Part shown: positions 29,974 through 43,347 of the stretch, one piece after another
How the letters are laid out: every line of letters starts with the position of its first letter
Position numbering within the stretch: the first letter of the stretch is position 1
Origin: Ruminococcus sp.
GTDB lineage: Bacteria > Bacillota > Clostridia > Oscillospirales > Ruminococcaceae
DNA: 64,000 bases
NCBI GenBank assembly: GCA_021200415.1
Contig: JAJQGO010000041.1
Coordinates: 1-64,000, forward strand
Reading direction: 5' to 3'
Translations under genes and position numbers: made by a program
The notes under the pieces: generated by a model
Seen by the model: the letters and a program-made list of their open reading frames with translations, nothing else
Told to the model about the DNA's origin: nothing
Databases searched by the model: none

Positions 29974-30738
29974 ATGGAAAATAAAAAACACAGCGATTTC
30001 GTTCCCGATGATATTATCGCGGGACGCAATCCCGTTATCGAAGCCCTGAAATCAGGCGCGCAGCTCGATACAATCTACATAGACGGCAGCGGAGGAAGTC
30101 TTAATCTGATACGCAGCCTTGCCAGGGAAAAAGGCATTGTCGTCAAGGATGCACAGGATAAAAAGCTTTCACAGCTCTCCGGAGGAGCTTCTCATCAGGG
30201 AGTTGTGGCTGTGGGAGCCTGCGGCGAATATGTCACGGTGGAGGATATTCTCGCTGTTTCGGCAGAGAAAAATTCCAAGCCGTTCATTATCATCTGTGAT
30301 GAAATCGAAGACCCCCACAATCTCGGCGCAATTATACGTACCGCTGAAACTGCCGGAGCTGACGGCATAATTATCCCCAAGCGCAGAAGCGCCTCCCTGA
30401 ACGCTACCGTATTCAAGACCTCCGCAGGAGCTGCAAGCTATGTGCCCGTCGCACGAGTTTCAAATCTTGCCGCCTGCATTGATTTTCTTAAGGAAAACGG
30501 CGTCTGGATTTACGGAACCGACGCTTCAGGCACCGATTACTGCGATACCGACCTTACAGGCAGCATGGCTCTTGTCATCGGCTCTGAGGGCTTCGGAATC
30601 AGCAGACTCATTCAAAAAAAATGCGATTTCATGATCAAACTGCCTATGATGGGAAAAATCACCTCGCTTAACGCTTCCGTTGCAGCAGGTATTTTTATGT
30701 ATGAAGCCCTTCGGCAGCGCAGATCATCTTCTAAATAA
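29974..30738 (+). CDS. rlmB: TrmH family rRNA 2'-O-methyltransferase (RlmB-type)
   Basis: SPOUT-class methyltransferase, 254 aa, predicted to methylate the 2'-O of G2251 in 23S rRNA using S-adenosylmethionine. An N-terminal L30e-like RNA-binding domain starts with IIAGRNPVIEAL. The knotted SPOUT catalytic domain carries motif 1 DEIEDPHNLGAIIRTAE (around 110), motif 2 LVIGSEGFGISRL (around 200) and motif 3 LPMMGKITSLNASVAAGIFMYEA. All three are intact. The GRNPV start and overall length fit RlmB better than other TrmH paralogs, though a different rRNA or tRNA target cannot be ruled out. It is followed after 12 bases by the large membrane protein gene. Confidence 0.9.
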   Translation: MENKKHSDFVPDDIIAGRNPVIEALKSGAQLDTIYIDGSGGSLNLIRSLAREKGIVVKDAQDKKLSQLSGGASHQGVVAVGACGEYVTVEDILAVSAEKNSKPFIIICDEIEDPHNLGAIIRTAETAGADGIIIPKRRSASLNATVFKTSAGAASYVPVARVSNLAACIDFLKENGVWIYGTDASGTDYCDTDLTGSMALVIGSEGFGISRLIQKKCDFMIKLPMMGKITSLNASVAAGIFMYEALRQRRSSSK

Positions 30739-30750
30739 GGAGCTGTACAT

Positions 30751-33297
30751 ATGTCGGATCAGAAATATTCTCTCGAAGATATTCTGGACGAATATTCTTC
30801 GGAGCAGTCCAATACAACATCTGTCGGTGACAGCCGCCTTGAAACTGAAAAGCTTCTCAATTCCGCGGAAAAGCTAAGCGGCAAATCTGCCAATGAGGCA
30901 GCAGCTGTAAAAACCGACAACACAAAAAAGGTAAGAAAGCATTCACGTACCGGCGGAGGCGGCGGCATGACAAGACGTCCGAATCCTGCCGATGATTTCA
31001 AGCCTGCCGACCTTTCCAGAAATAAGGTGTCCTTTGTCAATTCGGAGGCGATGAATGAGATTCACTCCTCACAAACCGGCAGCCGCCAACGCTATGACGA
31101 CGCTGCCGTTACAAATCAGGTGAATTCCGACAGCTCGCCGAAAATAAGACGTATGTCCGATTCCACACGGGCAAAGGAAATCGAAAGCATCAAAAAAAGC
31201 AAAAAGCGCCGCAGGGACAGCCTGAGCTTTACCTACGAAAGGGAAAAGCCTGACGGAGAGTATATGTACACTCCGCCAAAGGTTAAAAAGAAAAAGCGCC
31301 GCCGTTCCGTTGAAGAGGAGGCGGCAAGTGCGGAAAATAAAAAGCTTATTACCGATATTGTTCCATCTCCGGCTGCGGTGGAGGCGTCAAAGCCTGTTAC
31401 TCCTGCGCCGAGAGCCGAAAAAACAAGCATAAATCTTAGCGAATCGCCCGATTATGACGCAAGTTCCCTCGATGTGCATATCACACAGGGTACGGAGGAA
31501 TACCTCTCCGCAAAATCAAAAAACAAGCGTACGAAGCGTATGGTTGATTTCAATTATTACGGCGATGTCGAGGATGTCGGACGCGATATATATGAGCTGA
31601 AAAGCACTATATCCGTGCGTGTTTTCATTCTCGTCATGACATCATTCCTCAGCCTGTATATCACATTCGCAAATCAGTTCGGGCTGCCGATTATCGATAT
31701 TCTGAGTCAGTCAAATACACGGCTCTATCTCCTGACGCATCTCCTGATCGGTCTGATATCCATATTCGCGTCCTTTGCCGTAATCACCAACGGATTCAAA
31801 AAGCTGTTTCTCATGAAGGCGGACAGCGACTCCGTAACGGCAATAACAGCCGTTTCCTGCATTATAGCTATAATTCCTGCCTTTTTCGCTCCGGAAATGG
31901 TAGCTTCAAATACCATTCACGTTTATATGCCAATCGGCGTTCTCGCCCTTCTGACGAATTCAATAGGAAAGCTGCTTATAATCAACCGAGCCGCCCGAAA
32001 TTTCAAATTCGTTTCAAAGGATTTCGACCGCCACGGAATTACATACGTCCACAACGAAGAACGCGCGGAGGTTCTCACAAGGGGAACTCTCGGTGATTTC
32101 CCGATTCTGGCTTCTATGCGGAAAACCGATTTTCTTACGGATTTTCTCAGATATTCCTACTCCTCAGACATGACTGACAGCTATTGCAGCAGAAGCGCGC
32201 CCATTTGCCTGATTTTTTCAATCATCGTTTCAATTTTCATCACCTTTATCAAAATGGGCAGTCTTATGACGGCGGAAGCCGCTTCGTTCGGATTCTCCAT
32301 ATTCACAATGCTCCTGTGCGCGTCCTCCTGCATTGCCATGCCACTCGTTACAAATATTCCTCTGAAAAACGTATCTCGCAGAACAATAAAAGATTCGGGC
32401 ATTATGCTTGGCTATCAGAGCGTTGACGACTTCTACGACACGAACTCTATTCTCGTGGACGCCGAAAAGCTTTTCCCTCACGATTCAGTTAAGCTGGAGG
32501 GAATCAAGGTCTTCTCCAACACTAAAATTGACGAGGCTCTTCTTGAAGCCGCAAGCCTTACCCATCATGCGGGAAGCATTATGCAGCAGCTTTTCAGCGA
32601 CGTCACTGACGGCAAGGAGGAAATACTCTACCCTATCGAGAATTTCTCCTACGAGGAATCTATGGGGCTTTGCGGCTGGATAAACAACAGACGTGTCCTT
32701 TTCGGCAACCGTGAGCTTATGACAAGTCACAACATTGAGGGTATTCCCACAAAAACAAAGGAAGGCGAATACTGCTCTGCTTCTCAGGAGGCAATGTATC
32801 TCTCCATTTCGGGAAATCTTGCTGCAATGTTTATCGTAAATGTTTCCGCGGACAAGGAAGTAAAATACTGGGTCAAGCAGCTTGATAAGAGAAAGATCTG
32901 CCTTATAATCAAAAGCGTTGATTCCTGCCTGTCCCTGAAAAAGCTCTCATCGCTTTTCGGAATTCCGGAGGAAATGATGCGCATTATTCCAAAGAAGCTT
33001 CACGAGGAATTTGATGCCGAAACGGGACGTACAGTACGTCTGAGCGCGTCAATGGCTTGTTCGGGCAAATTCACGTCACTTGCCCAGCTCATAATAGGCA
33101 CAAAGGTTGTACATTCCGCATCAATAATCGGTCTGATTTTCCAGACAGTGTCTATACTTTTGGGATTCGGACTCAGCCTGATGCTCATTATGTCAAAGGC
33201 ATTCGACTACGACTATATGTCCGCGTCCTCGCTGATAATATATAACCTTGCCTGCACTTTATTCACCTGCATAGCAGTAAGCTTGAAAAAATTATAA
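30751..33297 (+). CDS. P-type-ATPase-like membrane protein with lost catalytic motifs
   Basis: 848-aa protein with a long, charged, probably disordered N-terminus (about 1-285, with basic clusters such as KKKKRRRS). A membrane region (about 290-540) and a soluble insert follow, then two C-terminal helices (around 790-845). Order and local sequence follow a P1B-type ATPase: the segment after the membrane helices (SGIMLGYQSVDDFYDTNSILVDAEKLF, about 550-575) sits where DKTGT should be. NRRVLFGNRELMTSHNI (about 646-662) resembles the nucleotide-domain motif of metal ATPases. ICLIIKSVDSC (about 718) stands where the TGDN region should be, and the GDGxND hinge is missing. Every motif for phosphorylation is lost, so this looks like a pseudo-ATPase. 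The family call is by eye; a plain unknown membrane protein is the alternative. Confidence 0.6.
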   Translation: MSDQKYSLEDILDEYSSEQSNTTSVGDSRLETEKLLNSAEKLSGKSANEAAAVKTDNTKKVRKHSRTGGGGGMTRRPNPADDFKPADLSRNKVSFVNSEAMNEIHSSQTGSRQRYDDAAVTNQVNSDSSPKIRRMSDSTRAKEIESIKKSKKRRRDSLSFTYEREKPDGEYMYTPPKVKKKKRRRSVEEEAASAENKKLITDIVPSPAAVEASKPVTPAPRAEKTSINLSESPDYDASSLDVHITQGTEEYLSAKSKNKRTKRMVDFNYYGDVEDVGRDIYELKSTISVRVFILVMTSFLSLYITFANQFGLPIIDILSQSNTRLYLLTHLLIGLISIFASFAVITNGFKKLFLMKADSDSVTAITAVSCIIAIIPAFFAPEMVASNTIHVYMPIGVLALLTNSIGKLLIINRAARNFKFVSKDFDRHGITYVHNEERAEVLTRGTLGDFPILASMRKTDFLTDFLRYSYSSDMTDSYCSRSAPICLIFSIIVSIFITFIKMGSLMTAEAASFGFSIFTMLLCASSCIAMPLVTNIPLKNVSRRTIKDSGIMLGYQSVDDFYDTNSILVDAEKLFPHDSVKLEGIKVFSNTKIDEALLEAASLTHHAGSIMQQLFSDVTDGKEEILYPIENFSYEESMGLCGWINNRRVLFGNRELMTSHNIEGIPTKTKEGEYCSASQEAMYLSISGNLAAMFIVNVSADKEVKYWVKQLDKRKICLIIKSVDSCLSLKKLSSLFGIPEEMMRIIPKKLHEEFDAETGRTVRLSASMACSGKFTSLAQLIIGTKVVHSASIIGLIFQTVSILLGFGLSLMLIMSKAFDYDYMSASSLIIYNLACTLFTCIAVSLKKL

Positions 33298-33431: not shown

Positions 33432-34886
33432 ATGTCTAACAGATACAATGATTCCGATGAATATTCAAATCGCAATAAGCATATAAAAAACACCGATAAT
33501 GAAAGTACGCAATATATTTCTCCAAATTCCGACAACGAAGACACAGCCGAAATAAGGCGAGTTACAAGCTCTTATCAGAATCCGCAGAACAGGCAGTATT
33601 CCAACGGCTACAATGGTCAGCAGAATCCGCAGAACAGACAATATCCCAACGGCTACAATGGTCAACAGAATCCACAGAACAGGCAGTATCCCAATGGCTA
33701 CAGCGGTCAGCAGAATCCGCAAAACAGGCAGTATTCCCCTAACCGTCAGCAATACTACAATTCGGGACAGCAGGGCAATTATCAGCGTTCCCGAAGCAGC
33801 TCTGATGCCGGATATAACGGAAATCCACAGCGAGGCCGCAATCAGAACGGTCAGAGATACGGAAATGCCGCTGCGCCCAATAGCAATCCACAGCAAAGAC
33901 GCCGTCAGCCTGAACCGCCGAAGCGTAAAAAAAGGCACCCAATCCGCAAGCTATTTTTCAGAATCTTTATGATTCTCCTTGTAATATTGCTGATCATTTT
34001 CGGAGTTTACTCATGTACGGCAATTTCTCTCATAAAAAAGCTGAACTATTCCGAAAGCGGCAGCCGAAGCCATACTGCCGGCGCACTCAGCGAAAGCTAT
34101 GTGACAAGCATACTCCTGATAGGCACGGACGGCAGAACTACTGATGACAGCGGCAGATCTGATACTATGATGCTGCTGTCGGTCAACTCATCCTCCCATA
34201 CTATAACTCTCACATCGTTTCTGCGTGATTCCTACGTCAGCATTCCCGGATACGGCGAGGACAAGCTCAATCACGCGTATGCCTACGGCGGCGCTGATTT
34301 GCTCATGGACACAATCGAACAGAATTTCGGAGTTCGGATTGATGATTACGTAATGGTTAATTTTACCTCCTTTGCCGCGATAATTGATTCCGTTGGCGGT
34401 ATAGATATTGAAATATCCGATTCTGAAGCGGAGGAAATCAACACAATTCTTATGGCTGAGGTCAATGAGCTGATGGGAGATGATGTGGATTCCGATTTGC
34501 TTGACAGCGGCGGATCAGTTCATCTCAACGGCAAACAGGCTCTTTCCTACGCAAGAATAAGATATGTCGGCAATGCCGATTTCGAGCGTACAGAGCGTCA
34601 GCGAGAGGTAATTACAGAGGTTCTGAGCAAGCTCGAAACCCTTAATCCGTCATACATCAGCAGTATCGCCGAGAATGCTATTCCGGATGTTACAACGAAT
34701 ATGGAAACTATGCCGCTCTATCTGCTTTCGCTTAAGCTGCCGTTCTGCCTTGGATATGATATTGAACAGGTGCAGATTCCTGCCGACGGCACATACTGGA
34801 GTACAACAACCTCCATCGGCGGCGATGCCCTTGCATTTGATTTTGATGCCAATTACGCTATACTTGAAGAAATATATGAGGATTAA
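33432..34886 (+). CDS. LytR-CpsA-Psr (LCP) family cell-wall polymer ligase
   Basis: 484-aa LCP protein that transfers undecaprenyl-linked glycopolymers to peptidoglycan outside the membrane. The N-terminal about 175 residues are cytoplasmic, low-complexity and Asn/Gln/Tyr/Arg-rich, with repeated NPQNRQYPNGYNGQQ units. A basic patch (PKRKKRHPIRK) and one membrane helix (FFRIFMILLVILLIIFGVYSC, about 176-196) follow. The LCP domain has SILLIGTDGR, the Arg/Asp set in SGRSDTMMLLSVN, and FLRDSYVSIPGYGEDKLNHAYAYGG. ALSYARIRYVGNADFERTERQREV is the second hallmark. With the MBOAT operon nearby it may serve attachment of the modified polymer; that link is inference. Confidence 0.94.
   Translation: MSNRYNDSDEYSNRNKHIKNTDNESTQYISPNSDNEDTAEIRRVTSSYQNPQNRQYSNGYNGQQNPQNRQYPNGYNGQQNPQNRQYPNGYSGQQNPQNRQYSPNRQQYYNSGQQGNYQRSRSSSDAGYNGNPQRGRNQNGQRYGNAAAPNSNPQQRRRQPEPPKRKKRHPIRKLFFRIFMILLVILLIIFGVYSCTAISLIKKLNYSESGSRSHTAGALSESYVTSILLIGTDGRTTDDSGRSDTMMLLSVNSSSHTITLTSFLRDSYVSIPGYGEDKLNHAYAYGGADLLMDTIEQNFGVRIDDYVMVNFTSFAAIIDSVGGIDIEISDSEAEEINTILMAEVNELMGDDVDSDLLDSGGSVHLNGKQALSYARIRYVGNADFERTERQREVITEVLSKLETLNPSYISSIAENAIPDVTTNMETMPLYLLSLKLPFCLGYDIEQVQIPADGTYWSTTTSIGGDALAFDFDANYAILEEIYED
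33588..33740 (+). repeat. 45-bp in-frame tandem repeats in the LCP gene
   Basis: Three full 45-bp units (33588-33632, 33633-33677, 33678-33722) and a partial fourth encode NRQYxNGYNGQQNPQ. Units differ by a few bases, mostly silent. Copy-number change would lengthen or shorten the cytoplasmic tail in 15-residue steps without a frameshift. Confidence 0.92.
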
Positions 34887-36930: not shown

Positions 36931-37698
36931 CTATGGATACCTCGGCAGAGAATCATATATATGCAGCAAATATTTTCTCAGCACAACAGCGTCCGCAATT
37001 GTAACTGCTCCGTCATACATACAGTCCGCAGCCTCAACCTGAAGATCGTTCAGAATTACCTTATCCTGCAAAAGCTTGATAAGCAAAATAAAATCAAATG
37101 ATGTAACATAGCCGTCGCCGTCAAGATCTCCGCAGCAGCCGGGAACTACCTCTTCACGTTCGGGGATGTACTGATCCTCCAGCTCCTCGTCCGTTGCAAT
37201 AAAAAGCTGCTCCCAATACCAGCCGTATACAGTGCCTTCCTGATAGCAAACGCCAACTCCCATGTGGGTATAATTCTCATTCATAATATTTGCCCAGTGA
37301 CCGGAGGAATTTTTCCACTGCTCAAAGGTTGCCTCAACAGTTGTATTTCCGGCAGCTATATTTTCAGCTGCTCCCATGCAGGATATTTGATATTCCTCGA
37401 GAACCGTGTAAAATCCTGTACCGTCAGGGCGTGTGTGGCTGAAATAATCCACGCACTCAAGTGTTCTGACAAGGGAGGCGTTATTCAGCACGGGGACAGC
37501 GTAAACCGGCTTCAATCCGGCTTCTGTACGAGCTTCATTTACAAGGATTACCATTTCCTCCACGATGTTGAAGTAATCCGGAACTATCTCCTCAGCATAG
37601 GCAGGTCTGCGGCAAAATTCCACGCAAACGCTTGTAACTGCAATAAAAAACGACAGAAACATTCCACATAGCCTATTCAATAATGACCTTAATTTCAT
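36931..37698 (-). CDS. Secreted CAP-domain protein with C-terminal dockerin
   Basis: 255-aa secreted protein. Signal peptide about 1-30 (MFLSFFIAVTSVCV, cleavage near AYAEE). A CAP/SCP domain (about 45-170) has VNEARTEAGLKPVYAVPVLNNASLVR, YFSHTRPDGTGFYTVLEEY, MGAAENIAAGNTTVEATFEQWKNSSGHWANIMNENYTHMGVGV, with the His and Glu residues of the CAP cavity. The last about 65 residues are a type-I dockerin: DLDGDGYVTSFDFILLIKLL and DCMYDGAVTIADAVVLRKYLL. CAP-domain function in bacteria is poorly known. The dockerin implies display on a cohesin scaffold. The ORF track starts at 37713, but that ATG lies within the ribosome-binding site GGAGGTG of the start at 37698. Confidence 0.88.
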   Translation of the reverse strand: MKLRSLLNRLCGMFLSFFIAVTSVCVEFCRRPAYAEEIVPDYFNIVEEMVILVNEARTEAGLKPVYAVPVLNNASLVRTLECVDYFSHTRPDGTGFYTVLEEYQISCMGAAENIAAGNTTVEATFEQWKNSSGHWANIMNENYTHMGVGVCYQEGTVYGWYWEQLFIATDEELEDQYIPEREEVVPGCCGDLDGDGYVTSFDFILLIKLLQDKVILNDLQVEAADCMYDGAVTIADAVVLRKYLLHIYDSLPRYP

Positions 37699-37728
37699 AC
37701 CGCACACCTCCAATCAAATTTCGACTTA

Positions 37729-37912: not shown

Positions 37913-40216
37913 TTAGCTCTCCTTCAGCTCGACTCTGCGAATCTTTCCGCTGATAGTTTTCGGAAGCTCGTCCCTGAACTCCACGATTCTGGGGTACTTA
38001 TAAGGAGCTGTGTGCTTCTTGACGTAATTCTGAATTTCCTTTTTAAGCTCGTCCGTGCCGACTGTTCCCTTGGTGAGAACTATCGTTGCCTTTACAACCT
38101 GACCTCTGATTTCATCGGGAGCAGCTGTAACAGCGCATTCCAGCACGTATGGCAGCTCCATAATTACGCTTTCAATCTCAAAAGGTCCGATTCGGTAGCC
38201 GGAGGATTTAATGAGATCGTCCACACGTCCAACGTACCATAAATAGCCGTCCTCATCACGCCATGCGGTATCGCCTGTATGGTAAACGTTGTCATGCCAT
38301 GCTTCCTTGGTTTTCTCCTCATCACGGTAATAGCCCATGAAGAGTCCGCATGGTGAGCCTTTATCCGTGCGTATAACGATTTCGCCTGTTTCGCCGTCCT
38401 TTGCGCTTGTGCCGTCGGGGAGAACAATATCAACGTCATAGAGAACGCTCGGGATTCCCATAGAGCCGGGCTTTGCCGTCATTCCTACGAAGTTTCCCAC
38501 GGAAAGAGTTGTTTCGGTCTGTCCGAAGCCCTCCATCAGCTTAATTCCCGTTGCCTTGAGGAACTGATTATACACCTCGGGATTGAGCGCCTCGCCTGCA
38601 ACTGTAGCATACTTGACTGAGCTGAGGTCAAATTTCGAAAGATCCTCTTTGATGAAGAAGCGATACATTGTCGGCGGTGCGCAGAATGTGGTGATGTTGT
38701 ATTTTGCGAACATGGGGAGAATCTTGTTGGCATCGAATTTTTCAAAATCATACACAAAGACAGCCGTTTCGCTCATCCACTGACCATAGAGCTTGCCCCA
38801 GAGAGCCTTGCCCCAGCCTGTATCGGAAATGGTGAAGTGAATTCCGTTGGGGTCAACATTATGCCAGTAGCGTGCAGTAATGAAATGTCCGAGAGGATAC
38901 TTATGATTGTGTGTCGCGATTTTCGGATAGCCTGTCGTTCCCGAAGTAAAGAACATGAGCATCGGGTCGGAGCCGCAGGATTCCTCGCTCCTTGCGGGAC
39001 GTTCAAAAACATCGCTGAATTTATACATTTCCTTGTCAAAGGATTTCCAGCCGTCACGCTCGCCATGAGCAATTATTTTGAGTATGGGATAATCGCAGGC
39101 TGCTGCCGCAAGCTCAGCCTGATGGGCAACATCGCCGTCACCGGTGCAGACGATTGCGGAAACTCCTGCTGCGTCGAAGCGGTATTTGAAATCCTTTTCA
39201 ACAAGAAGATTTGTTGCGGGAATAACAATTGCCCCCATTTTGTGAAGCGCGATAATAGAGAACCAGAACTGATAATGCCTCTTGAGGACAAGCATAACTC
39301 TGTCGCCCTTTTTGATTCCGAGGGACTTGAAATAATTTGCCGTCATGTTGGAATATTTCTTTATATCGGCATAGGTAAAGCGGTTTTCCTCAAATTCATT
39401 TGATACATGAAGCAGTGCCAGCTTATCCGGACATTTTTCCGCAAGACCGTCAACTATATCGAAGCCGAAGTTAAAGTCCTCCTCGTTAAAGAACTCAACG
39501 CCTGTCATCATGCCCTTGCTGTCGGTTGAAACCTTTACAAACCTGTCGGAAATCGGGTCCTTAATGCCTGCAAGCTCAAAATTCGTAACTGCCGGAAGCT
39601 CCACAGATTCAACCTCCTGCGCCTTACGGGGATTTTCGTCAAGCACGACCGCATAAATACTGCATCCCCTGGCATCACCTGCCCAGACATCATGCTCCTC
39701 GCCGCTGTTGTAGTAAATCACGTCGCCCTCGTGAAGCTCCTCAACGTTATCGCCAATCTGCACCATAAGAGTTCCGCTGATAACAATATCAAACTCCTGT
39801 CCCTTATGGCGGCTCATATGCGGCTCACGGGAGGCCTCGTCAACGTAGGGAATCGTTACAAGGAACGGTTCGGCAATTTTATTTCTGAACTGGGGTGCAA
39901 GACGTTCATAATTGAATCCCGCACGGCGGGCAATCGGAACTCCCTCCCCTTTTCGCGTAATATTGTAGCTGCTCAGGCTCGGGCTGACACCCTCCATAAG
40001 GTCGGTGATTTCAACGCCGCAGGCATTTGCGAATTTATAGATAAATGTGAAGCTGAAATCTGTATTTCCTTCCTCATAGGCAAGATAATCCTCAAGGGAA
40101 ACATCGGATTTGACAGCCATTTCCTCCGGAGTGCAGCCAACAGATTCACGTACAGCCTTAATTCGTTCTGCAACCTCCTTTATTTTCAATTCCGGATCTT
40201 TTAACATTTCGCTCAT
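37913..40216 (-). CDS. XRE-cupin-acyl-CoA synthetase fusion protein
   Basis: 767-aa cytoplasmic protein with three parts. An XRE-type helix-turn-helix (about 10-70: IKAVRESVGCTPEEMAVKSDVSLEDYLAYEEG) and a cupin domain (about 100-200: EPHMSRHKGQEFDIVISGTLMVQIG, EGDVIYYNSGEEHDVWA) make up the first 200 residues. An AMP-forming acyl-CoA synthetase (about 230-765) follows, with the P-loop MLMFFTSGTTGYPK, GFGQTE, YHTGDTAWRDEDGYLWYVGR and the catalytic Lys in KTISGKIRR. The synthetase half resembles acetyl- or medium-chain acyl-CoA ligases. The XRE-cupin half is the architecture of small-molecule-sensing regulators, so DNA binding and enzymatic activity may be linked, or the domain may only sense a ligand. 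Start at 40216 chosen for its AAAGGAAAG site; the track extends to 40279. Confidence 0.85.
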   Translation of the reverse strand: MSEMLKDPELKIKEVAERIKAVRESVGCTPEEMAVKSDVSLEDYLAYEEGNTDFSFTFIYKFANACGVEITDLMEGVSPSLSSYNITRKGEGVPIARRAGFNYERLAPQFRNKIAEPFLVTIPYVDEASREPHMSRHKGQEFDIVISGTLMVQIGDNVEELHEGDVIYYNSGEEHDVWAGDARGCSIYAVVLDENPRKAQEVESVELPAVTNFELAGIKDPISDRFVKVSTDSKGMMTGVEFFNEEDFNFGFDIVDGLAEKCPDKLALLHVSNEFEENRFTYADIKKYSNMTANYFKSLGIKKGDRVMLVLKRHYQFWFSIIALHKMGAIVIPATNLLVEKDFKYRFDAAGVSAIVCTGDGDVAHQAELAAAACDYPILKIIAHGERDGWKSFDKEMYKFSDVFERPARSEESCGSDPMLMFFTSGTTGYPKIATHNHKYPLGHFITARYWHNVDPNGIHFTISDTGWGKALWGKLYGQWMSETAVFVYDFEKFDANKILPMFAKYNITTFCAPPTMYRFFIKEDLSKFDLSSVKYATVAGEALNPEVYNQFLKATGIKLMEGFGQTETTLSVGNFVGMTAKPGSMGIPSVLYDVDIVLPDGTSAKDGETGEIVIRTDKGSPCGLFMGYYRDEEKTKEAWHDNVYHTGDTAWRDEDGYLWYVGRVDDLIKSSGYRIGPFEIESVIMELPYVLECAVTAAPDEIRGQVVKATIVLTKGTVGTDELKKEIQNYVKKHTAPYKYPRIVEFRDELPKTISGKIRRVELKES

Positions 40217-40302
40217 AGCAAGCTTTCCTTTCTGAAATTTTAGGCATTGTCTCAAACGGTCTGTATTACACGTTCTCAAATCATACAGACTATATCATAA
40301 TA

Positions 40303-40431: not shown

Positions 40432-43134
40432 TTATTCGGCTGCAGCTGCGTACACATCGGGGAACTCCGGAAGAGGAGAGCCTGTTTCCAGGAAGTAATC
40501 CGTATGCGGCGGCTGGTTATATGCTACGTTCTGTCCGGCAACCTGTTCACGGTACTGAACATTGTGCATAAGCGTATAGATAGCGTATTCCGTTGTATAT
40601 GTTGTTCCGAAAACTCTGAGAGCCGTACCGTCTGACGTTGCAAATACCATTTCCTCACGCCAGTCGCCAAAGAGGTCGCAGGTAATGCAGGCATTCGACT
40701 TCGAGCTGTTGTTGTATGTTACGCCGTCACCTGTAAATACTCTTCCATAGCCGTACTGGTCAACTATTGCTCTGTCGAGGACGCATCTTTCAAGCGTACC
40801 CGTCCAGTATACAACTGAATTCTGCCCCCATTTTGTAATATCGTCCCAAGTGCATATCTGTGTACCTGTGGAGTCGTAAATAATTTCGTTGTGACTTCCT
40901 GAAAATTCCGCGCTGTTGTTTGAAGGAATGAGGTTATCGGCAATACATCTTCCTGTATCGCTGCTTGCTGTTTCTCTGAACAGTATCTCGCCTGTTGCGG
41001 CGTCACGGAGAGAAATTCCATAGCCTGATTCGCCTTCCTCATGGCACATGAATATTTCAAGTCCGGGATTATCGGGTATGAAATCGCCGACATGGAGAGC
41101 GTCGCCGTGACCAAGACCTGTTGTATAGAGGAGTGATCCGTCATCGTCAATTACAGCCGAACCCATTACAAGCTCATCCTTGCCGTCCTCATCAACATCC
41201 GCTGCCATGCAGTTATGATTTCCGTCGCCATATCCGGCAGCAGCTGAATTGTTTCCTGTGTCGAATGCCCAGCGTTCAACAAGCTTCTTGTCAACAACGT
41301 CATATGCGGTAGCTGTCATTCTTGTATAATAGCCTCTGCACATGATAACGCTTGGAGTTGTTCCGTCAAGATAAGCTGTTGCGGCAGTAAATCTGTCCAC
41401 ACGGTTTCCGTAGCTGTCGCCCCATGCGCTGACATCGCCTCTGCCCGGCTTATAATCAATAGTATCAAGTGCCTTTCCTGTTGCTCCCTCAAAGAGAGTG
41501 AGGTATTCAGGGCCGCTGAGGATTCTTCCTGCCGATGAACGATAATCAGCTGAAGCATCTCCTATAACCGTGCCTGTACCGTCAACAGTTCCGTCAGCGG
41601 TCTTGCAGACAATCTCCGCATATCCGTCGCCGTCATAGTCATATACCATGAACTGAGTATAATGAGCGCCCGCACGTATATTTATTCCGAGATCTATGCG
41701 CCAGAGCTTAGTTCCGTCCATTTCGTAGCAGTCAAGATATACATTTCCCGTATATCCGTCCTTTGAGTTATCCTGCGAATTTGAAGGATCCCATTTAAGT
41801 ATGATTTCATAATCTCCGTCACCGTCAACATCGCCTACGGACGCATCGTTCGGAGAGTACGAACAGGTTGTGCCGTCCGGCATTGTCAGATCGTCAGGCA
41901 CATCAAGAGGTATATCAAAATAAGCTCCGCTCTGACCGCTGTTTGCATTGGAAAGACTAATCGCAAGCTGAGCAAATTCCGTCATGGTATCTCCCACATA
42001 TGTATCAATTGTGTACCAGTCGGAAGCCGTACCCGATGAATCAAAGTAGCATGAAGCCTCATCTATAGTGCCTTCATATATTGCAGGAGTCTGTCCGTTT
42101 TTGTAGAGCTTGAATGTTGTATCCTCGCTGTCTGTTGCAAGGATTCGCCAGCTGACCATAACTCCGCTGCCGTTATAAGCTGCTGAAACTCCGCGGCTGA
42201 GTGCCTCAACCTGCTGCGCGCTTTCAGATATAGTCGTAGTTGTGGTGGTTGTCGTTGTTTCAGCTGTGGTTACAGTTGTTTCCGCAGCAGTTGTTGCAGT
42301 TTCGGTTACAACCGGAGTCTGAGCGTCAATAACCTCAGACGGCATTTCAACACGGCTGTCAGCAACTCCGCAGTAGCGGCACTCTGTGAAGTAATCAATG
42401 TTAGGACCGCCGTTTTCCGTAGCTGAAATAAATTTGATTTCATTTTCGCCCTCGGGGAGTGAAACGACTATAACAGCCTCCGACCAATCAGTCCATGAGC
42501 CTGTGCCTTCAAAATTCGCAAGGACAGCCTGTGTGCTGCCGTTTACGGAAATATACATCTGGCGGTTCTGGGTTGTTCCGTTGGCATATTTAATACGCAG
42601 CTTGTAATTCCCCGACATATCTACATTCACGGTAAATGCTGCCGAGCTGCCGATTTCATTGTCAAAGTTCACGTATGACGAGCCGCTGAAGCCCTCGTTT
42701 ACGGTTTCCGTCACCGAATTATAAAGCTCCGAATATTCTGCGAAATACTCATCATAGGGCGACATATCAAGCTTCACGTAATCGCCCACATACATATACC
42801 TGCTGGCTGTGGAAATCCATGTCATAACGTCTACAACGTCAGCAATATTCACATTTCCATCAGCATTTGCGTCAGCGCTGAGCATTGACGTATCGTCAAG
42901 CTCTCTGATTGTTGCGAGATAATACTGAATCTCAAGGGCATCCATGTTGCTGAGGCTGTAATCCGTCAGAGCGTCCCCGCGGACAAAATACTCCACGGAC
43001 GCATCGTAATCATCTGCGGAGCCTTCCGCAGAAGCCGAAACCGAAGCCGATGCAGGAAGTATAGTTCCCGAAGATGAAGCAGTAATCACTGCGCAGGTCA
43101 GGAACGCTGCGATTTGCCTGAATTTTCTGCTCAT
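40432..43134 (-). CDS. Rhamnogalacturonan lyase, PL11 family, with dockerin and carbohydrate-binding domain
   Basis: 900-aa secreted enzyme predicted to cut the rhamnogalacturonan-I backbone by beta-elimination. Signal peptide about 1-35; a dockerin near the N-terminus (about 50-105, with SLSNMDALEIQYYLATI and ADANADGNVNIADVVDVMTWI); a CBM6/35-like beta domain (about 120-245); a Thr-rich linker (about 260-290); a fibronectin-III-like segment; and the PL11 eight-bladed propeller. The propeller shows calcium-loop motifs such as VGDVDGDGDYEI, VYDYDGDGYAEIVCKTADGT and MAADVDEDGKDELVMG. It ends QYREQVAGQNVAYNQPPHTDYFL, typical of YesW/YesX. Its products would suit the importer and GH105 enzyme at 11.5-15.7 kb. 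The start is the ATG at 43134 (AAGGAGGAA site), not 43308. Confidence 0.93.
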   Translation of the reverse strand: MSRKFRQIAAFLTCAVITASSSGTILPASASVSASAEGSADDYDASVEYFVRGDALTDYSLSNMDALEIQYYLATIRELDDTSMLSADANADGNVNIADVVDVMTWISTASRYMYVGDYVKLDMSPYDEYFAEYSELYNSVTETVNEGFSGSSYVNFDNEIGSSAAFTVNVDMSGNYKLRIKYANGTTQNRQMYISVNGSTQAVLANFEGTGSWTDWSEAVIVVSLPEGENEIKFISATENGGPNIDYFTECRYCGVADSRVEMPSEVIDAQTPVVTETATTAAETTVTTAETTTTTTTTTISESAQQVEALSRGVSAAYNGSGVMVSWRILATDSEDTTFKLYKNGQTPAIYEGTIDEASCYFDSSGTASDWYTIDTYVGDTMTEFAQLAISLSNANSGQSGAYFDIPLDVPDDLTMPDGTTCSYSPNDASVGDVDGDGDYEIILKWDPSNSQDNSKDGYTGNVYLDCYEMDGTKLWRIDLGINIRAGAHYTQFMVYDYDGDGYAEIVCKTADGTVDGTGTVIGDASADYRSSAGRILSGPEYLTLFEGATGKALDTIDYKPGRGDVSAWGDSYGNRVDRFTAATAYLDGTTPSVIMCRGYYTRMTATAYDVVDKKLVERWAFDTGNNSAAAGYGDGNHNCMAADVDEDGKDELVMGSAVIDDDGSLLYTTGLGHGDALHVGDFIPDNPGLEIFMCHEEGESGYGISLRDAATGEILFRETASSDTGRCIADNLIPSNNSAEFSGSHNEIIYDSTGTQICTWDDITKWGQNSVVYWTGTLERCVLDRAIVDQYGYGRVFTGDGVTYNNSSKSNACITCDLFGDWREEMVFATSDGTALRVFGTTYTTEYAIYTLMHNVQYREQVAGQNVAYNQPPHTDYFLETGSPLPEFPDVYAAAAE

Positions 43135-43204
43135 TGTAAATTCCTCCTTAAAAATGAAGTTAAATATAATTTGTATATAAAAATCCACTTTCTTAATTAC
43201 GTTT

Positions 43205-43233
43205 AGTTTATCATGCCTTCCCCAAAAAGTCAA
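43205..43233 (-). promoter_or_regulatory. Sigma-A promoter for the PL11 gene
   Basis: On the minus strand TTGACT (43228-43233), 17-base spacer, TAAACT (43205-43210). The leader is about 64 bases. Bases 43234-43347 between this and the divergent nadB promoter hold nothing I can name. Confidence 0.7.
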
Positions 43234-43347
43234 CACGAAACCATCACAAAGACTAAATTCATCAGTTTTTAAGCATAATTTATCAGGCGTTTGCGAAAAT
43301 TCACGCATTATCCTGTATTTTAACCCTATTTTTTGTCATTTTTTATA

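Follow-up and report, generated by a model that had tools for sequence, protein, structure and literature searches.

What becomes of a metal pump once the parts that make it pump are gone? An 848-codon gene of Ruminococcus sp. raises this question. An earlier note on the window (the whole stretch of DNA analysed, 64,000 nucleotides) had described its product as a pseudo-P-type ATPase with a long disordered N-terminus, encoded by an intact gene between rlmB and an LCP ligase gene. The locus is as described. The frame is open over 848 residues with no internal stop, lies 12 bp behind rlmB and is preceded by a Shine-Dalgarno sequence; Pfam agrees on both flanks. The features of the locus are:

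29974–30738, plus strand: rlmB (23S rRNA 2'-O-methyltransferase, SpoU family; PF00588 E 1e-44, PF08032), immediately upstream, the order-wide partner (adjacent in 135/141 genomes)
30737–30742, plus strand: Shine-Dalgarno sequence AAGGAG, overlapping the rlmB stop codon (sequence)
30751–33297, plus strand: pseudo-P1B-ATPase gene, 848 codons (ORF call, phmmer against the PDB, fold, profile)
33432–34886, plus strand: LCP (LytR-CpsA-Psr) gene (PF03816), downstream neighbour in Ruminococcus and not in the other families read

We first considered what the protein derives from. The Pfam search returned no convincing family for the 848 residues. NCBIfam gave sub-threshold matches to heavy-metal P-type ATPase and CopA models (E about 1e-6), and none of the curated Pfam or NCBIfam cut-offs was reached. 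A phmmer search of the PDB with the single protein as query retrieved 3rfu, a copper ATPase, at E 4e-9. With a profile built on 25 family members, the PDB matches were mostly copper ATPases, CopA 3rfu reaching E 6e-31; 19 of 25 members matched the CopA model, and the profile match also covers the N-terminal transmembrane helices of true P1B ATPases. An AlphaFold2 model of residues 262-848, built on an alignment with 57 homologues from the genus, had a mean pLDDT of 84.9 and a pTM of 0.80. Foldseek ranked copper P1B-ATPases first for this model (4bbj, E 9e-20, probability 1.0, TM 0.58), with a high rmsd that we read as a different domain arrangement. The fold is thus predicted to be P-type. The isolated P/N region model retrieved CopA again. 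Its N-domain superposed on those of plant HMA6 and HMA8 with TM 0.7-0.8, normalised to those domains (HMA6: Foldseek TMt 0.81, rmsd 3.2). Searching a viral structure library gave just weak generic P-type ATPase matches.

The earlier note had taken the segment VLFGNRELM for a nucleotide-domain remnant, and it does align with the GN..LM segment of the P1B N-domain. The membrane layout, too, follows P1B pumps as had been claimed: hydropathy and model give eight hydrophobic segments or helices (MA, MB, M1-M6) in the 4+2+2 arrangement, the second of them kinked. N- and P-domains of P1B type are recognisable by both fold and profile similarity. Given the CopA profile match, the predicted fold and the 4+2+2 layout, derivation from a copper-type P1B-ATPase is well supported, and a resemblance of this strength in profile and predicted fold is not one of chance. 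From N- to C-terminus, the protein reads as follows (plus strand throughout):

30751–31533, plus strand: disordered basic, Ser-rich tail, residues 1-261 (composition; omega 0.10; no Pfam domain)
30769–30795, plus strand: N-terminal short motif SLEDILDEY (72/80 genus copies; looser in 19/34 other-lineage copies)
31534–31602, plus strand: juxtamembrane segment KRMVDFNYYGDVEDVGRDIYELK, conserved, residues 262-284 (genus alignment with many invariant columns)
31615–31983, plus strand: four transmembrane helices, the MA, MB, M1 and M2 equivalents (hydropathy, model helices, profile match)
31987–32184, plus strand: stub in place of the actuator domain, residues 413-478, beta-alpha-beta, without TGE (omega 0.009, model, census)
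32194–32349, plus strand: two transmembrane helices, M3 and M4; the CPC site reads SSC, residues 525-527 (census, hydropathy, genus alignment)
32458–32478, plus strand: DKTGTLT position, reading DAEKLFP, residues 570-576 (first Asp in 31/80 of the genus)
32512–32865, plus strand: N-domain, about residues 588-705 (Foldseek HMA6; invariant G639, G642 and G652; His-Pro lost)
32914–32925, plus strand: TGDN site, reading SVDS, residues 722-725 (D724 kept, TG lost)
33019–33051, plus strand: approximate deletion point of the GDGxND-bearing unit of ~30-40 residues (profile, census)
33133–33285, plus strand: two C-terminal transmembrane helices, M5 and M6 (hydropathy, model)

The tail of about 260 residues is, by composition, disordered and rich in Ser and Lys, with a net charge of +9, in line with the earlier description, and Pfam found no metal-binding HMA domain in it. 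The motif near its start follows the pattern SLEDILxEY in the genus; some of the 34 copies from outside the genus are fragments or have uncertain starts, which bears on their count of 19 looser matches. The pattern has only one other match in the window's own genome. A docking motif shared with other proteins was sought in that genome and 25 others, and the few scattered matches had no common theme. In the membrane part, the MB equivalent is kinked at about residue 341, near the invariant G348.

We then compared the catalytic motifs of the window protein and 34 other-lineage homologues (several from sister species) with those of true P1B ATPases. None of the 34, a few of them partial, has regained CPC, TGE, DKTGT or GDGxND. 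The DKTGT motif with its invariant phosphorylated Asp is absent, the window protein reading DAEKL. The TGE loop and the full A-domain are missing in the census, a stub of ~66 residues standing instead. M4 lacks a CPC- or SPC-type metal site and keeps one Cys of it (C527), which is invariant in the genus only. The nucleotide-binding His-Pro of SEHP is absent from the copies aligned. The earlier note had DKTGT, TGDN and GDGxND all replaced. This stands for the first two sites (DAEKL and SVDS), although residue 570 happens to be an Asp in the window protein, most relatives having N, E, S, K or G there, and D724 of TGD is retained in most members. The GDGxND hinge was deleted rather than replaced: wherever the alignment covers it, a segment of ~30-40 residues is missing. 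Because CPC, TGE, a conserved phospho-Asp, His-Pro and the GDGxND unit are lost, the protein should not go through an E1/E2 cycle or pump.

A protein so stripped is nevertheless kept almost everywhere in its order, presumably the Oscillospirales of GTDB. Profile matches with E below 1e-60, mostly spanning family-specific regions, were obtained in 142 of the 147 genomes searched in the order, normally as a single copy. Outside the order, the profile search found no member in 141 genomes of the same class. Two of these 141 had a match with E below 1e-35, both with DKTGT and at profile positions 437-725, like true ATPases. The phylum sample had no family member among the matches listed, and those resemble true ATPases. 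Judged by these searches, the family is a hallmark of a single bacterial order.

Selection was measured within the genus, whose set of 80 loci is nearly all Ruminococcus and includes R. flavefaciens isolates. Pairwise Nei-Gojobori estimates for 31 pairs with dS 0.05-1 gave a median dN/dS of 0.053; these pairs share sequences, hence are not independent, and all lie within one genus. By region, dN/dS was 0.009 in the A-stub, the most constrained part of the protein, 0.030 in the P/N region and 0.104 in TM1-4. A subset of 21 pairs, hand-picked from the 31 with one outlier excluded, gave 0.056 for the core, 0.100 for the disordered tail and 0.049 for rlmB; LCP had 0.073 in 14 pairs. The pseudo-P1B-ATPase is thus under strong purifying selection, close to the level of rlmB. 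The outlier (L193 against L167) had a dN/dS of 0.32 at dS 0.91, far above all other pairs, and possibly reflects saturation or recombination. Copies in relatives are intact bar a few isolated broken ones in metagenome-assembled genomes: a stop or frameshift occurs in MAGs G057, G437 and G046. Three copies broken by TGA or frameshift lie at L031:3165-5561, G437:C207:18813-20441 and L041:5221-7448, and are due either to assembly error or to real loss.

Since conservation is strict despite the removal of every pumping part, an ancient pump has evidently been converted to another use. We favour, at about even chances, the reading that a P1B pump no longer capable of transport has been rebuilt into a docking scaffold. 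The protein is a single-copy ancient pseudoenzyme that retains the P1B membrane layout and N-domain; it would serve as a docking platform embedded in the membrane. Its predicted binding surfaces are the rebuilt A-stub, the N-domain, the juxtamembrane segment and the N-terminal motif on its flexible tail. The A-stub is a putative surface because its constraint is the strongest, as expected of a binding surface. Any conformational change would be driven by partners, not ATP. The protein would be expressed together with RlmB, and the process it takes part in would most likely have to do with translation, or with the maturation of ribosomes, at the membrane, since rlmB is the sole order-wide neighbour. 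This last step is the weakest. A specific form of it seems to us quite doubtful: a lineage-defining membrane receptor, made from the dead pump, that couples RlmB to the membrane across Oscillospirales and, through RlmB, the 2'-O-methylation of 23S rRNA or late steps of ribosome maturation.

The pairing itself is order-wide. We found rlmB in 142/147 genomes of the order and both genes in 141. In 135 of these 141, rlmB is the immediate upstream neighbour, with the same orientation; the other six have the two genes on different contigs. Of the 80 genus loci, 78 have rlmB directly upstream. Four genomes (G387, G410, G422 and G445) lack both genes, a co-absence that is only suggestive because a gap in the assembly takes neighbouring genes away jointly; in G357 and G431 just one of the two is present, plausibly through contig breaks. 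However, conserved gene pairs can arise from chromosome inertia or shared expression. The protein may then do something unrelated in the membrane or envelope, such as helping LCP ligases, an alternative that we consider unlikely. It is an integral membrane protein, an LCP gene follows it directly in all 66 Ruminococcus loci that could be read, and a link between RlmB and the membrane is absent from the present findings. Yet the LCP neighbour is unseen in other families, where the downstream gene varies (EF-G-like, Era, Lon, YebC, GMP synthase, nitroreductase and others), and the rlmB order was kept across families while other neighbours turned over. As a consequence, the wall-polymer role hinted at in the earlier note is weak: it rested on an adjacency seen in one genus only, while the order-wide partner is rlmB.

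The downstream genes, from EF-G-like and Era to Lon, YebC and others, have no functional theme. A gene of 678-720 residues, belonging to one sequence cluster, lies directly downstream in five families (L031, L035, L045, L046 and L048), and the two members tested are EF-G-like. Two further ideas about the rlmB locus were dropped. The gene follows no rule as a replacement of yacP/rae1, many carriers still encoding YacP elsewhere and others not. Capture of a true copA beside rlmB outside the order found no trace either, as no rlmB lies near the best-scoring true ATPases in the ~1 kb of flank read. Outside the window, the YacP/Rae1 NYN domain (PF05991; G000:C34:7079-7489) sits in an open frame of 857 residues in the window's genome, and the corresponding frames across most of the genus are ~860-900 residues long, which suggests that YacP/Rae1 is fused to a larger protein.

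The scaffold reading must also be weighed against a non-pumping ligand sensor, whose N-domain would bind a nucleotide or small molecule and pass the signal on across the membrane or by way of the disordered tail. The retained fold of this domain speaks for it, as do G639, G642 and G652, invariant in 80/80 genus copies, and D724, and residual weak ligand binding may persist in the family. P1B N-domains, as established for CopA, use the first Gly of GxG and His-Pro for ATP, and both are gone in the copies aligned; nor is a signalling domain attached. We regard the sensor as improbable.

A cryptic active pump, in which a shifted Asp close to the former DKTGT position would accept the phosphate, has very little in its favour. 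Many members do have an Asp at or beside that position, and D724 is retained. But residue 570, the equivalent of the DKTGT Asp, is D in just 31 of the 80 genus sequences (N in 23, E in 12, S in 9, K in 3, G in 1 and a gap in 1), neither TGE nor the GDGxND unit is present anywhere in the order, and M4 has no CPC-type metal site; we rejected this candidate for the variation at the phosphorylation site. A decaying pseudogene, to which the loss of every catalytic motif and the few broken MAG copies might point, is refuted by the dN/dS of 0.053 and by frames intact in the great majority and spread over 142/147 genomes, as the earlier note had anticipated. That note had proposed profile search, structure prediction and dN/dS as checks, and all of them uphold its pseudo-ATPase reading; of the two outcomes it had named as refuting, an unrelated fold and frameshifted copies in close relatives, neither came about, apart from the isolated broken MAG copies.

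Among known systems, the closest are the copper P1B-ATPases (CopA; PRK10671, TIGR01525; 3rfu/4bbj), which share the 8-TM layout, the kinked MB, the N-domain fold, the P-domain up to the TGD strand and a colinear profile match. Unlike CopA, the protein lacks CPC, TGE, DKTGT, His-Pro and GDGxND, has a stub for an A-domain, no HMA domain found and a long disordered N-tail, and is tied to rlmB. No description of a bacterial family of dead P-type ATPases was found in the open-access literature, most subscription journals being outside its coverage. The nearest published cases found are two. Plasmodium guanylyl cyclase beta has a degenerate P4-ATPase domain (PMC6592433), of eukaryotic type and fused to the cyclase, whereas the present protein is free-standing, bacterial and conserved in an order. 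KdpB in the inhibited KdpFABC complex (PMC9651954) is likewise a bacterial P-type protein in a non-cycling state, but there a functional pump is switched off through phosphorylation of the Ser in TGES, whereas here the loop itself is gone. The family offers a clean natural experiment on the uses of a P-type scaffold that has no ATP to drive it. It also marks a housekeeping gene, missed by Pfam, that is close to universal in major gut commensals, and it points to a possible connection between an rRNA methyltransferase and the membrane.

Some further observations concern the surroundings of the gene. Read by eye from the translation only, the N-terminus of the LCP protein (window ~33560-33800) has tandem repeats of the type NPQNRQYPNGYNGQQ. 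Two further products are consistent with a cellulosome-forming Ruminococcus: a CAP-domain protein that bears a dockerin (36931-37713), and a large one in which CBM6 and rhamnogalacturonan lyase family 11 domains are combined (40432-43308). Between them, at 37913-40279, a single ORF, its translation again read by eye only, is an apparent fusion of an XRE/cupin-type regulator with an acyl-CoA synthetase.
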